Shown here piece by piece: positions 20,456-50,519 of a stretch of 64,000 nt of DNA. Location of the stretch: positions 372,001 to 436,000 of the forward strand of contig NC_013521.1 of the NCBI RefSeq assembly GCF_000024925.1, in the 5' to 3' direction. This DNA is from Sanguibacter keddieii DSM 10542. GTDB taxonomy: Bacteria; Actinomycetota; Actinomycetes; Actinomycetales; Cellulomonadaceae. Within the stretch, counting starts at the first letter, position 1, and each line of letters begins with the position of its first letter. The notes beneath the pieces are model-generated. The model saw nothing but the letters and a program-made list of their open reading frames with translations, was not told the origin of the DNA and ran no database searches. The translations under genes and the position numbers were made by a program.

Positions 20456-20580
20456 GAGGCCGCACAGCTGCACACCAGGTCGCACACCGACCCGCGAGGT
20501 CGCACGGACACGCCAGACGGACGCGGTCAGGCGGAGGATCTGGCGTGTCAGTGCGACCTCGGCGGAGAAGGTGCGACCTC
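20456..20580 (+). repeat. phased 20-bp repeat element, family A copy 2
   Basis: Left units GAGGCCGCAC, CAGGTCGCAC and GAGGTCGCAC begin at 20456, 20476 and 20496. The stem arms GGACACGCCA (20506-20515) and TGGCGTGTCA (20541-20550) enclose a 25-nt loop, and right units GTGCGACCTC begin at 20551 and 20571. Left and right inner units are 55 bp apart. It lies 19 nt after the response-regulator stop, in a convergent gap. Confidence 0.9.
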
Positions 20581-31300: not shown

Positions 31301-31847
31301 GCAGCGGTTCTTGCGGGTCAAGGAGATCATCGAGCGGTTCCGGGGGCGCGAGGGTCAGACCGAGGCCGACCAGGCGTGGACGGTCCGGGTCACGGACGTG
31401 CGCAACTGGTTCGTGCTGTCCGCGTCGGAGCGGTCCAAGGCCGACGACGTCGAGCTCGAGCACTACTCCGACTCCGGTGGTAAGTCCGGTGGTCAGAAGG
31501 AGAAGCTCGCGTACACGATCCTCGCGGCGTCGCTGGCCTACCAGTTCCGCCTCGACTGGGGCGCGGTGCGGTCCAAGGCCTTCCGCTTCGTGGTGATCGA
31601 CGAGGCCTTCGGGCGCGGGTCCGACGAGTCGACGCGCTTCGCGTTGCAGCTGTTCCGCAACCTCGGGCTGCAGCTGCTCATCGTCACGCCGCTGCAGAAG
31701 ATCCACGTGATCGAGCCGTTCATCTCCGCCGTCGGCTACGTCGACAACCCCACGGGCCGCGGCTCGCGGCTGCAGACGCTCACCATCAACCAGTACCGCA
31801 GCAAGCGCTCCGAGCACCTCCTGGGAGCCCTCGGCGCCGAGGTCTGA
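28347..31847 (+). CDS. jetC: Wadjet/Mks condensin SMC-like ATPase JetC-like (MukB/MksB role)
   Basis: From ATG 28347 the protein has 1166 residues. The N-terminal head starts RLERLEVLNWGTFDRTTWSF and has Walker A GDIGSGKST (54-62). Long coiled-coil arms surround a hinge near the middle. The C-terminal head has signature SGGKSGGQKEKLAYTI (about 1042) and Walker B RFVVIDEAFGRGSDEST (about 1078). Such proteins load on DNA and extrude loops using ATP. A Gly/Ala/Thr-rich disordered insert (about residues 761-825, beginning SGGAGAGAGADGAATTGAAG) interrupts the C-terminal coil and looks unusual for an SMC arm. No JetD nuclease follows: a repeat element and convergent hipA come next. Confidence 0.92.
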   Translation: MEGLFSAVELHDAEADVDQRAGFRLERLEVLNWGTFDRTTWSFDLEGRNALLTGDIGSGKSTIVDAVTTLLLPANRISYNKAAGAEAKERTLRSYVSGYYKSERNEATGTSRPVGLREGSTYSVILGEFVNRGFEATGVLAQVFWLKDGDQGQPSRFYVTAASSMTIAEHFANFDGDITRLRKRLREAGAQVRDTFPEYGKDFRRMLGIESDQAMDLFHQTVSMKSVGDLNEFVRQHMLEPFDSGQWTDRLVAHFDDLTRAHDAVTRARAQIMQLTPLVADCDRFAGLVDQASAATAQRDALRVFTAQRKDSVLTAQIDAYDAAIRARDERLVSLDVEIRTSEAERRRLELERAGHGGDRLAQIEAESARLDAVRADREKRAAEYRSNLEAAGLEGVADAAEFAARRDQVLAQVATEKTELQQVETAIGEIDYALREQKVVSREITEEIRSLQGRSSSLPARSLQVRAQIATELGIPEDELAFAGELIAVRDDHRDWEGAAERVLRSFALSLLVPAAHYDAVSGWINSNHLGQRLEYYRVPAEVRPRVESGGGADWPHLSEMLEIQESTVSRWLEQELARRADYACVDSLDEFRRAHRAVTREGQIKHSASHHVKNDRNRVDDRSTYVLGWSNQTKVDTLLAQATTVSETVADLTDQRAALIATKDAVVDRAHALNRLEMFRDFTELDWEQVVHQVGELTAEKRRIEANSVELAELASTLQEQTRRGAELAEERDRLISRNGGERHAVESFRTQREAARKVSGGAGAGAGADGAATTGAAGVDQEALDAVAALWEALPGQGGGRPGATVAGGPGSGDAATTMAEIDAAEAALRTQLTGVVEARQREQGQLATSVAKQMTAFSQQFPVETSEMDNDVRAAGEYRELLERLERDDLPRFEENFKEYLNTNTIRDVAQFAAELQKQSDLMSDRVDVINDSLRAIDYNPGTYIRLEMTSTPNTEVRDFRTQLRACTDGILGEDLDQYSEQRFLRVKEIIERFRGREGQTEADQAWTVRVTDVRNWFVLSASERSKADDVELEHYSDSGGKSGGQKEKLAYTILAASLAYQFRLDWGAVRSKAFRFVVIDEAFGRGSDESTRFALQLFRNLGLQLLIVTPLQKIHVIEPFISAVGYVDNPTGRGSRLQTLTINQYRSKRSEHLLGALGAEV

Positions 31848-31857
31848 CACGCGTCGC

Positions 31858-31982
31858 GAGGTCGCACCCCCGTCACCGAGACCGCACGCCTGCCGCCGAG
31901 GTCGCACAGACACGCCAGATGTCCGTCCTCGGACGGTGGTCCTGGCGTGTCCGTGCGACCTGGACCGCGCAGGTGCGACCTC
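31858..31982 (+). repeat. phased 20-bp repeat element, family A copy 3
   Basis: Left units GAGGTCGCAC, GAGACCGCAC and GAGGTCGCAC begin at 31858, 31878 and 31898. The arms AGACACGCCA (31908-31917) and TGGCGTGTCC (31943-31952) flank a 25-nt loop. Right units GTGCGACCTG and GTGCGACCTC begin at 31953 and 31973. It lies 11 nt after the JetC stop and 7 nt before the convergent hipA stop. Confidence 0.9.
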
Positions 31983-44435: not shown

Positions 44436-45671
44436 ATGAAGATCGTCGACGCCCAGGTCATCGTCACCAACCCCGGACGCAACTTCGTCACCCTGAAGAT
44501 CACCACGGACACAGGTGTCACCGGGCTCGGGGACGCGACGCTCAACGGGCGCGAGCTGTCGGTGGTGTCGTACCTCAAGGACCACGTCGCCCCGCTGCTC
44601 GTCGGCACGGACCCGCACCGCATCGAGGACACCTGGCAGCTCCTCTACCGCGGCGCGTACTGGCGCCGCGGCCCGGTGACCATGGCCGCGATCGCCGCCG
44701 TCGACGTCGCGCTGTGGGACATCAAGGCGAAGGTCGCCGGCCTGCCGCTGTACCAGCTGCTCGGCGGGGCGAGCCGCGAGCGTGTCCGCACCTACGGGCA
44801 CGCCAACGGGGCGGACCTCCCCGAGCTCTTCGACTCGGTCCGCGCGCGTCTCGCCGAGGGGTACACGGCGGTCCGCATCCAGACGGGCGTCCCCGGTCTG
44901 AAGACCGTCTACGGCGTGCACCAGGGCACGGCCATCGCCGAGGCCGACGGTGTCGCCGGTGCGCCCCGTCTTGACCAGACGGCCCGCCCGGTCGTCGAGG
45001 ACTGGGACACGCGCGCCTACCTGCGCCACATCCCGACGGTCTTCGAGGCCGTGCGCAACGAGTTCGGCCCCGAGATCCCGCTGCTGCACGACGCGCACCA
45101 CCGCCTCACGCCCATCGAGGCGGCGCGCCTGGGCAGGTCGCTCGAGCCGTACGACCTGTTCTGGCTCGAGGACTGCACCCCGGCCGAGAACCAGGACGCG
45201 CTGCGCCTGGTCCGCGAGCACACGACCACCCCGCTGGCCATCGGCGAGGTCTTCAACACCGTCTTCGACTACCAGACGCTCGTGGGCGAGCAGCTCATCG
45301 ACTACGTGCGGTCGGCCGTGACGCACTTCGGCGGGGTGTCGCCGCTGCGCAAGCTCTTCGACTACGCCGCGCAGCACAACATCAAGAGCGCGATCCACGG
45401 CCCCGAGGACATCTCGCCCGTCGGCATGGCGGCCGCGATCCACCTGGACCTCGCCATCCACAACTTCGGCATCCAGGAGTACTCCGGGTACACCGACCGC
45501 ACGCACGAGGTGTTCCAGCACGCCTTCACCTTCACCGACGGCCACCTGCACCCCGGCGAGGCCCCCGGTATCGGCGTCGACCTCGACGAGGAGATGGCAG
45601 CCGGCCACCCCTACGAGCGCGCCTACCTCCCCGTCAACCGCCTCGCCGACGGCACCGTCCACGACTGGTAG
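44436..45671 (+). CDS. manD: D-mannonate dehydratase (ManD/RspA family, enolase superfamily)
   Basis: This 411-residue enzyme dehydrates D-mannonate to 2-keto-3-deoxygluconate with Mg2+. It begins [22 protein letters not shown] and shows [23 protein letters not shown], the capping domain common to ManD. The metal ligands appear in order: D in [12 protein letters not shown] in [11 protein letters not shown] and E in [10 protein letters not shown]. The catalytic HGPEDISP and the family's typical end [18 protein letters not shown] are intact. Some ManD-family members have very low or no activity, so a related D-sugar acid is possible. The preceding transporter probably imports the substrate or its oligosaccharide. 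Confidence 0.93.
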
Positions 45672-45680
45672 ACCACGCAC

Positions 45681-45771
45681 CCCCACCCACCACATCTCAT
45701 GGCCGTGGCGCGTCGGCGTGACCCTCTGCGAGAGGTCATGGCGGCGCGCCACGGGCATGAAGGTGGGAGCG
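45681..45771 (+). terminator. dispersed palindrome family B, copy 3
   Basis: CCCACC...TCATGGCCGTGGCGCG on the left pairs with CGCGCCACGGGCATGAAGGTGGG on the right, and an inner ACCCTCTGCGAGAGGT hairpin caps it. It starts 10 nt after the manD stop, fitting a terminator. Confidence 0.7.
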
Positions 45772-48214: not shown

Positions 48215-48339
48215 GAGGTCGCACGCCTGCTGGCGAGGTCGTATGTCTGCCGGCGAGGTCGCACGGACACGCCACATCATCGTCCCCGAGGCGGTGTCCT
48301 GGCGTGTCCGTGCGACCTCGAGCTCGGGCGTGCGACTTC
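48215..48339 (+). repeat. phased 20-bp repeat element, family A copy 4
   Basis: Left units GAGGTCGCAC, GAGGTCGTAT and GAGGTCGCAC begin at 48215, 48235 and 48255. Arms GGACACGCCA (48265-48274) and TGGCGTGTCC (48300-48309) flank a 25-nt loop. Right units GTGCGACCTC and GTGCGACTTC begin at 48310 and 48330. It starts 11 nt after the GH3 stop and lies in a tandem rather than convergent gap. Confidence 0.92.
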
Positions 48340-49439: not shown

Positions 49440-50519
49440 ATGAGTAAACAGATCGGTATACCCGCTGCGCTCGGGCTCGCGCTCCTCTCCGCCGTCTTCG
49501 TCCTGTGCTGGTCCTCCGGGTTCCTCGTGGCCGCCGTCGACGTCGGAGCGCCCGTCGCGACGCTCCTGCTGTGGCGCTTCGCCGTGGTCGTCGCGGTCCT
49601 GGCCGTGGTCGTCGCCGCGCTGCGGCGGCGCAGGGTCGGTGCGCGCCGCGCTGCCCGCGGCGCCGGCGACGAGGGCCACGGCCACAGCGTCGACGTCGAC
49701 AGCGACAGTGACGACGACGACAGCGACGACGACGACGGCGACGGCGACGACGGCGACGGCGACGACGGCGGCCGGGGTGCGCCCGCGCGTCCCGAGAGAG
49801 CCCGCCAGGCGCTCGTCGGCCTGTTCTCGCAGGTCGGCTACGTGGTGCCCGTCTACCTCGCGATCGGTCTGGGGGTGAGCACCGGGACGACGGCGCTCAT
49901 CGACGCGGTCCAGCCGCTCGTCGTCGCGACCCTCGTGGGGCCGCTGCTCGGGCTGCGTGTCCGCGGCGCCCAGTGGGCCGGCCTGGCGGTCGGCGCCGTC
50001 GGCGTCGTGCTCGTGGTCGGCGCCGACCTCGGGTCGGGGACCGCGCCCTGGACCGCCTACCTGCTGCCGCTCGCGGCGATGGCGAGCCTCGTGGCCGGGA
50101 CTTTCGTCGAGCGGCGGCACCCGACGTCGTCGGGGGTGCTCGACACGCTGCTCGTCCACGCGGTGGTCGCCCTGCTGGCGATCGGCGCCTTCGCGGTGCT
50201 CGCGGGCCAGGCCGTCCCGCCGACCACCGCGACCTTCTGGTGGACCGTCGTCTTCGTCGCGCTGTCGCCGACCCTCGCCGCCTACGGGCTGTACTGGTAC
50301 CTCGTGGGCCGGCTGGGCATCACCGCCCTCAACGCGCTGCTGTTCTGCGTCGCCCCGACCACGGCCGTCGCCGGGGCGCTGCTCTTCGACGAGGTCGTCA
50401 CCGCCGGGACGCTCGCCGGGCTGGTGCTCTGCGCGGCGGGCGTCGGCGTCGTGCTGACCAGCGAGGCCCGTGGCCGACGGGCAGCGCGGTCCCTTGCGTC
50501 GGTCTCGCCCGCGACCTAG
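49440..50519 (+). CDS. EamA-family (DMT) transporter with acidic loop insert
   Basis: From ATG 49440 the protein has 359 residues with ten hydrophobic helices in two EamA halves: ALGLALLSAVFVLCWSSGFLVA and WRFAVVVAVLAVVVAALRRRR, then VALLAIGAFAVLAG and LSPTLAAYGLYWYLVGRLG. It probably exports a small metabolite or drug. Residues 79-111 are an Asp/Gly-rich run (for example VDVDSDSDDDDSDDDD and DGDGDDGDGDD) in the first cytoplasmic loop, encoded by a degenerate GACGGC-type repeat. This insert is not part of the family. It is divergent from a TetR repressor that probably controls it. Confidence 0.87.
   Translation: MSKQIGIPAALGLALLSAVFVLCWSSGFLVAAVDVGAPVATLLLWRFAVVVAVLAVVVAALRRRRVGARRAARGAGDEGHGHSVDVDSDSDDDDSDDDDGDGDDGDGDDGGRGAPARPERARQALVGLFSQVGYVVPVYLAIGLGVSTGTTALIDAVQPLVVATLVGPLLGLRVRGAQWAGLAVGAVGVVLVVGADLGSGTAPWTAYLLPLAAMASLVAGTFVERRHPTSSGVLDTLLVHAVVALLAIGAFAVLAGQAVPPTTATFWWTVVFVALSPTLAAYGLYWYLVGRLGITALNALLFCVAPTTAVAGALLFDEVVTAGTLAGLVLCAAGVGVVLTSEARGRRAARSLASVSPAT
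49444..49461. promoter_or_regulatory. candidate TetR operator O2 inside the EamA start
   Basis: On the minus strand the segment reads TATACCGATCTGTTTA, sharing TATACCGATCTGT with O1. It lies across the first codons of the transporter, so binding could also block transcription through the start. Confidence 0.5.

Follow-up and report, generated by a model that had tools for sequence, protein, structure and literature searches.

The element at positions 48215-48339 and its three counterparts in the window, by which we mean the whole 64,000-nt stretch of Sanguibacter keddieii DNA analysed here, are best explained as orphan, geneless solo copies of hairpin arrays that frame small, selfish-looking nuclease genes in Actinomycetota, a reading to which we assign a probability of roughly two in three. 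The genes in question encode an AbiEi-like part joined to a Vsr/homing-type nuclease part and are often framed on both sides by hairpins that follow the same plan as the elements. The preliminary description of this DNA overlooked that nuclease genes of one family are framed by hairpins of this plan, written in a multitude of sequence dialects.

A Rigid, Phased Element Past Stop Codons

Each window element opens with three left 10-bp units close to GAGGTCGCAC at 20-bp steps, followed by inner arms, a loop and inverted right units. The element under study (element 4, 48215-48339, + strand) has left units at 48215, 48235 and 48255, 10-bp arms, a 25-nt loop and right units at 48310 and 48330. The 25-nt loop recurs in element 2 (20456-20580, + strand; left units at 20456, 20476 and 20496, arms GGACACGCCA and TGGCGTGTCA, right units at 20551 and 20571) and, between a further pair of arms, in element 3 (31858-31982, + strand; left units at 31858, 31878 and 31898, right units at 31953 and 31973). 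In element 1 (1422-1627, + strand), with left units at 1422, 1442 and 1462, the inner arms have decayed and the right side is extended to six units starting at 1517, 1537, 1557, 1577, 1598 and 1618 (span 1517-1627). These unit starts bear out the initial account of four elements with units in 20-bp phase and of a constant 55 bp from the last left to the first right unit in all four, and the upstream ORFs, ending at 1362, 20437, 31847 and 48204, confirm distances of 60, 19, 11 and 11 nt past the stop codon; the 20-bp steps, said to be exact, are so throughout except for one 21-bp step in element 1 (1577 to 1598). A dialect-blind finder, which looks for two similar 10-mers 19-21 bp apart with an inverted counterpart on the other side, recovered all four elements in the window together with one 21-bp-step match at 49584, and returned 0 matches on 10 Markov shuffles. 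The match in question (49584-49751) has a 117-bp centre, overlaps a called ORF and resembles coding repeats. RNA folding of elements 1 to 4 gave z scores of -2.25, -6.82, -5.52 and -8.68, respectively.

Genome-wide, a double-unit pattern that required neither the inversion nor the 55-bp centre uncovered 20 elements in the 4.25-Mb host genome (G000), the reversed pattern giving 0 forward and 2 reverse matches as a control. With up to 3 mismatches allowed, each of the 20 has two or more units on either side in 20-bp steps, and the centre measures 55 bp in 19 of them and 53 bp in one. In two host elements (L046 and L050) one inner arm is 9 bp deeper and the loop 9 nt shorter, with the 55-bp total unaltered. 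Sixteen of the 20 lie in the chromosome half centred on the contig ends, although to read an origin bias into this would be a guess. Across 59 genomes, the double-unit scan registered 55 forward and 64 reverse matches in Sanguibacter inulinus (G001), and the GAGGTCGCAC-type double unit was without a match in the four other genomes of the genus. The S. inulinus loci that were fetched contain at least 22 elements, 20 with a centre of 55 bp and 2 with one of 54 bp, in a scan that admitted only centres of 52-58 bp, and the total in that genome is probably higher. Further copies therefore exist in the host and in a related genome, their spacing does not vary freely and they are not coding repeats, all of which supports the view of a real, rigid, multicopy element with a fixed plan that is tied to gene 3' ends. 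The accompanying statement that no named family has this plan held as far as it could be tested, with 0 matches to Rfam 15 at gathering score in the window and no report matching these elements in open-licence PubMed Central full text. We rejected a plasmid, phage or viral origin, as the element was unmatched in plasmids and phages and the double unit in viral contigs.

The Same Plan Frames a Family of Nuclease Genes

One case of framing is seen in genome G048, where two hairpins enclose a gene of 343 residues. A repeat search round eight members of the gene family, and then round 50 gene calls, revealed framing hairpins of private sequence round many of them, each framed gene having its own unit dialect. 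For 33 of the 52 family members with full flanks, as against 1 of 49 neighbour genes, the upstream and downstream flanks resembled each other beyond a threshold set at the 99th percentile of 156 cross-pairs, with 19 of the 52 lacking matching flanks at that threshold and with members drawn partly from genomes picked for carrying arrays. A strong hairpin is present in 57 of the 104 flanks of family members, and 41 of 56 distinct hairpin arms contain an internal 9-mer repeat (at least 7/9), whose step is 19 or 20 in 35.5 of the 41 repeat-bearing arms (ties shared), where shuffled arms lead one to expect about 1.8. The framing hairpins accordingly display two or more units of about 10 bp per arm, at a 19-20 bp step and inverted on the opposite arm, next to the 20-bp steps found in 20 of the 20 host elements. 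In a phylum-wide draw, a member at E 1e-20 was present in 64 of 296 genomes; 29 loci of this draw were read, of which 13 pass the framing threshold and 5 show a visible 19-20 bp step. At L353 and L359, from genus g124 in another family of the class, the flanks are alike and palindromes stand on both sides, with no clear 19-20 bp step. Extra copies of GGCGTGTC, which resembles the inner arm of the window elements, occur within the hairpins of L272, a distant family member in G005, and also upstream beside one S. inulinus element (L094).

Family genes are present also in genomes without GAGRTNGYAC arrays, for instance G002-G005, where they are accompanied by other dialects. The gene occupies the same chromosomal place in three species, adjoining a common neighbour gene in G003 and G005 and standing one gene away from it in G002, and given this shared place the gene itself may seldom be mobile; its framing dialect is almost shared between G003 and G005, whereas G002 has a clearly different one. 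The architecture of the window elements recurs in the GAACTCGTGA elements of G003 and G005, composed of two or three left units at exactly 20 bp, a variable loop and two or three right units. Their centre is fixed at 46 bp in 4 of 4 cases in G003 and at 45 bp in 2 of 2 in G005, so that a constant centre round a variable loop characterizes both the host set (55 bp in 19 of 20) and the GAACTCGTGA set (45-46 bp in 6 of 6). At L263, GAACTCGTGA elements at 1176-1291 and 2364-2479 flank a family gene at 1477-2349, and at L264 such elements at 1396-1490 and 2620-2714 flank one at 1504-2370; each of the two genes has one in-frame stop and may be broken. Two GAACTCGTGA elements are solo in G003: the Sanguibacter long form, with two or three units, a fixed centre and two or three inverted units, both frames a gene and stands alone.

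No counterpart to these framed genes was encountered in the dialect of the window elements themselves. The 5-kb loci round the 20 host elements contain no GAGGTCGCAC-framed family gene, and the two family-gene matches in the host and the two in S. inulinus have no GAGGTCGCAC array alongside, even though other dialects do have a framed gene. This absence is the largest gap in the orphan-copy reading.

Solo Copies and Dialects at Gene Ends

Solo copies carry the dialect of the resident gene in several genomes. The GGTCGTCTAT pair pattern marks five hairpins in G005, two of them gene-framing, and has 5 forward and 4 reverse matches in G003 and none in the four other Sanguibacter genomes; the five G005 hairpins are identical at 61-62 of 62 bp and lie in different flanks. 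Moreover, one and the same gene end can carry different dialects in sister species. The orthologous end of the window gene that stops at 31847 is occupied by element 3 in the host, by a solo GAACTCGTGA element in G003 and by a GGTCGTCTAT hairpin in G005; G001 lacks an element at this end, G002 has a plain hairpin, and in G004 nothing is evident. Similarly, 3' of the window gene that stops at 45671, the host has a CATGnnCGTGGCGCG hairpin (45693-45767, + strand), and the orthologous ends have a GAGGTCGTAC element in G001 and a GGTCGTCTAT hairpin in G005; by eye, the CATGnnCGTGGCGCG dialect resembles the one used by the hairpins on either side of a broken family gene elsewhere in the host genome (G000:C1:3301959-3302816). 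A check for insertion into terminator loops showed left and right flanks to be scarcely more complementary to each other than when permuted (mean 5.33 vs 4.95, the highest of 300 permutations being 5.36); of 52 elements, 1 exceeded the 95% point.

Such copies bear directly on a reading that we regard as improbable, namely that the elements are operators bound by a host factor, AbiEi-like or other, that acts as a chromosomal regulator or a nucleoid protein and organises a regulon or the chromosome itself, with no mobility involved. Rigid helical phasing between random spacers and loops is what operators would offer, and the placement of 16 of the 20 host elements in one chromosome half fits as well. 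The five near-identical 62-bp copies in G005 and the different dialects at a single orthologous gene end look like spread instead, and in the contexts checked the elements lie past stops, not at promoters.

Arrays with 20-bp steps and related units (GAGGTAGYAC, GAGATCGCAC, GAGATTGCAC) extend to other genera, a strict degenerate pattern matching 11 of 396 genomes of the order. In a sample of 32 arrays from six genomes, 19 of 20 one-sided arrays (G012, G036, G215 and G381) point in the sense of the preceding gene, after setting aside 5 two-sided arrays, 6 within a called ORF and 1 antisense array whose facing gene is more than 300 bp off; gene calls came from a simple GC-frame script, and single contexts may err. 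For the GAGGTAGYAC dialect, 10 of the 20 one-sided arrays contain, within their first unit, the TAG on which the called gene ends (at L089, L172, L173, L181, L182, L186, L195, L200 and L205, in the same four genomes), as though the element had landed among the gene's final codons and provided its stop codon.

An AbiEi-like Part Fused to a Vsr-Type Nuclease

The structure model of the G048 member (mean pLDDT 93.5, pTM 0.91) resolves into two parts. I-Bth0305I, a homing endonuclease, is matched by residues 203-320 (Z 10.7, rmsd 2.9, 96 aligned), Vsr by residues 201-318 (Z 9.3, rmsd 2.5, 102 aligned) and AbiEi by residues 2-198 (Z 9.6, rmsd 6.8, 165 aligned); AbiEi was also the single Foldseek match at E 0.001 or better to the model. 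E206, D237, E259, D261 and K265 are among the ten columns invariant in 30 members. The AbiEi assignment recurs in PADLOC, whose AbiEi profiles match 3 of 3 family proteins tested. Some members have weak Pfam matches to AbiEi_4, MTES_1575 and DUF559, and the first family member has no Pfam match; NCBIfam gave no match for the one family protein tried and PHROGs none for three. Ribosomal protein S20, the main result of a sequence-profile search of solved structures, was taken as a chance match and dismissed.

The protein shares features with several known systems and differs from each. With the EDxHD/Vsr-like homing endonuclease I-Bth0305I it shares the C-terminal nuclease fold and the conserved acidic and lysine residues, but it differs in its AbiEi-like N-terminal part, in being framed by hairpin arrays and in having solo hairpins elsewhere. 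With the AbiEi antitoxin of type IV toxin-antitoxin systems it shares its N-terminal half, by fold and by PADLOC profiles, which is here instead fused to a nuclease. Tn7-type ends are built of repeated protein sites of about 22 bp, and their TnsA belongs, broadly, to the same nuclease class; the family protein aligns with TnsA at Z 6.8, within the background that the tool warns of, and, unlike at Tn7 ends, each end here is a complete palindrome and no DDE partner was seen.

Spacing and Units Are Held, Loop and Spacers Are Not

A site-by-site comparison of host and S. inulinus took in nine of the 20 host elements, eight at orthologous sites and the one at 31858. Identity at the eight orthologous sites is 0.93-0.94 in the innermost units and arms and 0.90 in unit R2, with L2 at 0.69 and varying array ends; spacer identity falls to 0.55 and 0.44, and loop identity, at 0.36, equals that of random pairs (0.36). 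Because nonorthologous copies are already 0.86-0.90 alike in their innermost units and arms, these values reflect a held consensus and a saturated loop rather than site-specific detail. The conservation of position and units between the two species points to selection, something for which a purely selfish relic would have no use.

The initial account had left the choice between a protein-binding array and a structured 3' RNA, and of the two the binding array is favoured, with spacing kept and loop and spacers near random between orthologues. A paired hairpin state may also occur. Across 42 elements, position 8 of the innermost unit pair is paired (C-G or T-A) in 38, with 21.5 expected after shuffling, and yet the next unit pair shows no covariation (27 of 42 paired, 25.5 expected) and arm position 9 falls below expectation (18 of 42 paired, 23.0 expected). 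The control unit pairings L3-R2 and L2-R1 display a weak position-8 correlation as well (p 0.047 and 0.02), and the signal therefore belongs in part to the element as a whole. With G-T included as a pair, the gap between unit and arm shows weak covariation (26 of 42 vs 21.5 expected, p 0.045), and the spacers of the 42 elements do not covary. Selection on the whole hairpin as RNA was rejected, given the lack of covariation in the spacers and at arm position 9 and the weak signal in the gap; with one free position paired, the remainder looks like a consensus read by a protein.

These data also weigh on a possible, if rather less probable, alternative that is compatible with our preferred one, in which the elements are host 3'-end devices, acting as bidirectional terminators, as roadblocks or as structured 3' RNAs and retained, irrespective of origin, for their effect on the genes that precede them. 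The position past stop codons would be expected of such devices, as would the strong RNA folding of three of the four window elements, the sense orientation of 19 of 20 one-sided arrays in other genera, the covarying position 8 and the preservation of units and spacing at the eight orthologous sites, whereas the static next unit pair and arm position 9 would not. Nor does the element end like an intrinsic terminator, defined by a G+C-rich hairpin and a T-run: the hairpin folds, but the consensus of 39 elements has no T-run past the element and no T-rich columns after the hairpin. A private dialect and a 20-bp phase would, furthermore, be superfluous for a terminator, and at the gene end occupied by element 3 the sister species G001, G002 and G004 manage without the element.

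A Candidate Mechanism and Its Relation to REP Systems

The reading of the window elements as orphan copies of gene-framing arrays would accommodate both the phase and the location of the elements. The AbiEi-like half of the protein would read the units, several molecules binding in register on one DNA face, two helical turns apart, and this mode of reading would keep the spacing fixed. The Vsr/homing-type half would cut DNA, and cutting would in turn let hairpin copies settle at gene ends or overwrite older dialects there. In the window species, the GAGGTCGCAC set would either have outlived its gene or use one that lies outside the matches described above, and selection would maintain it, perhaps because of a function at 3' ends. 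More tentatively, and at somewhat less than even odds, we propose a phylum-wide, undescribed class of selfish DNA in which a homing-type nuclease with a fused AbiEi-like DNA reader, framed by two phased hairpins in its own dialect, gives rise to solo hairpins at the 3' ends of genes and overwrites rivals, one dialect having been adopted by the host and kept in place in the window species and S. inulinus after loss of the enzyme; the overwriting of rival dialects at the same sites would then explain why sister species differ in the dialect found at one gene end.

As described in PMC3733652, REP sequences are dispersed extragenic palindromes near gene ends that also frame a dedicated enzyme gene, and the present elements resemble such REPtrons in being scattered extragenic palindromes at gene ends, both solo and round a framed enzyme gene. 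It is nevertheless very improbable that they are themselves REP sequences mobilized by a RAYT transposase of the HUH/Y1 type. No match to Y1_Tnp (PF01797) was found in 6 of 6 Sanguibacter genomes at E 0.001, the control being positive in 5 of 14 genomes; the consensus of 39 elements carries neither a GTAG nor a CGTC end tag, and the elements exceed 100 bp vs 20-40 bp for a REP palindrome. The framed gene, too, is of another fold, an AbiEi-like part with a Vsr-type nuclease in place of an HUH/Y1 enzyme, and the arrays consist instead of 10-bp units in 19-20 bp phase, with a private dialect for each gene. By analogy, the hairpin-framed nuclease elements would work like a REPtron, yet they are not one.

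Taken with their framed relatives, the window elements may represent a form of selfish DNA that is so far undescribed. To our knowledge, REP palindromes and RAYT enzymes are the main known dispersed bacterial palindromes with a dedicated enzyme; if our reading is true, the hairpin arrays would constitute a second, unrelated palindrome-enzyme system, built on a Vsr/homing-type nuclease. Its private dialects would make the co-evolution of a protein and its DNA site readable from sequence, and the multiplication of hairpins by a nuclease and their settling in sense direction past stop codons would become directly testable. A large group of AbiEi/DUF559-type genes in Actinomycetota, represented in the 64 of 296 genomes of the phylum-wide draw, would on the same reading gain a possible role.
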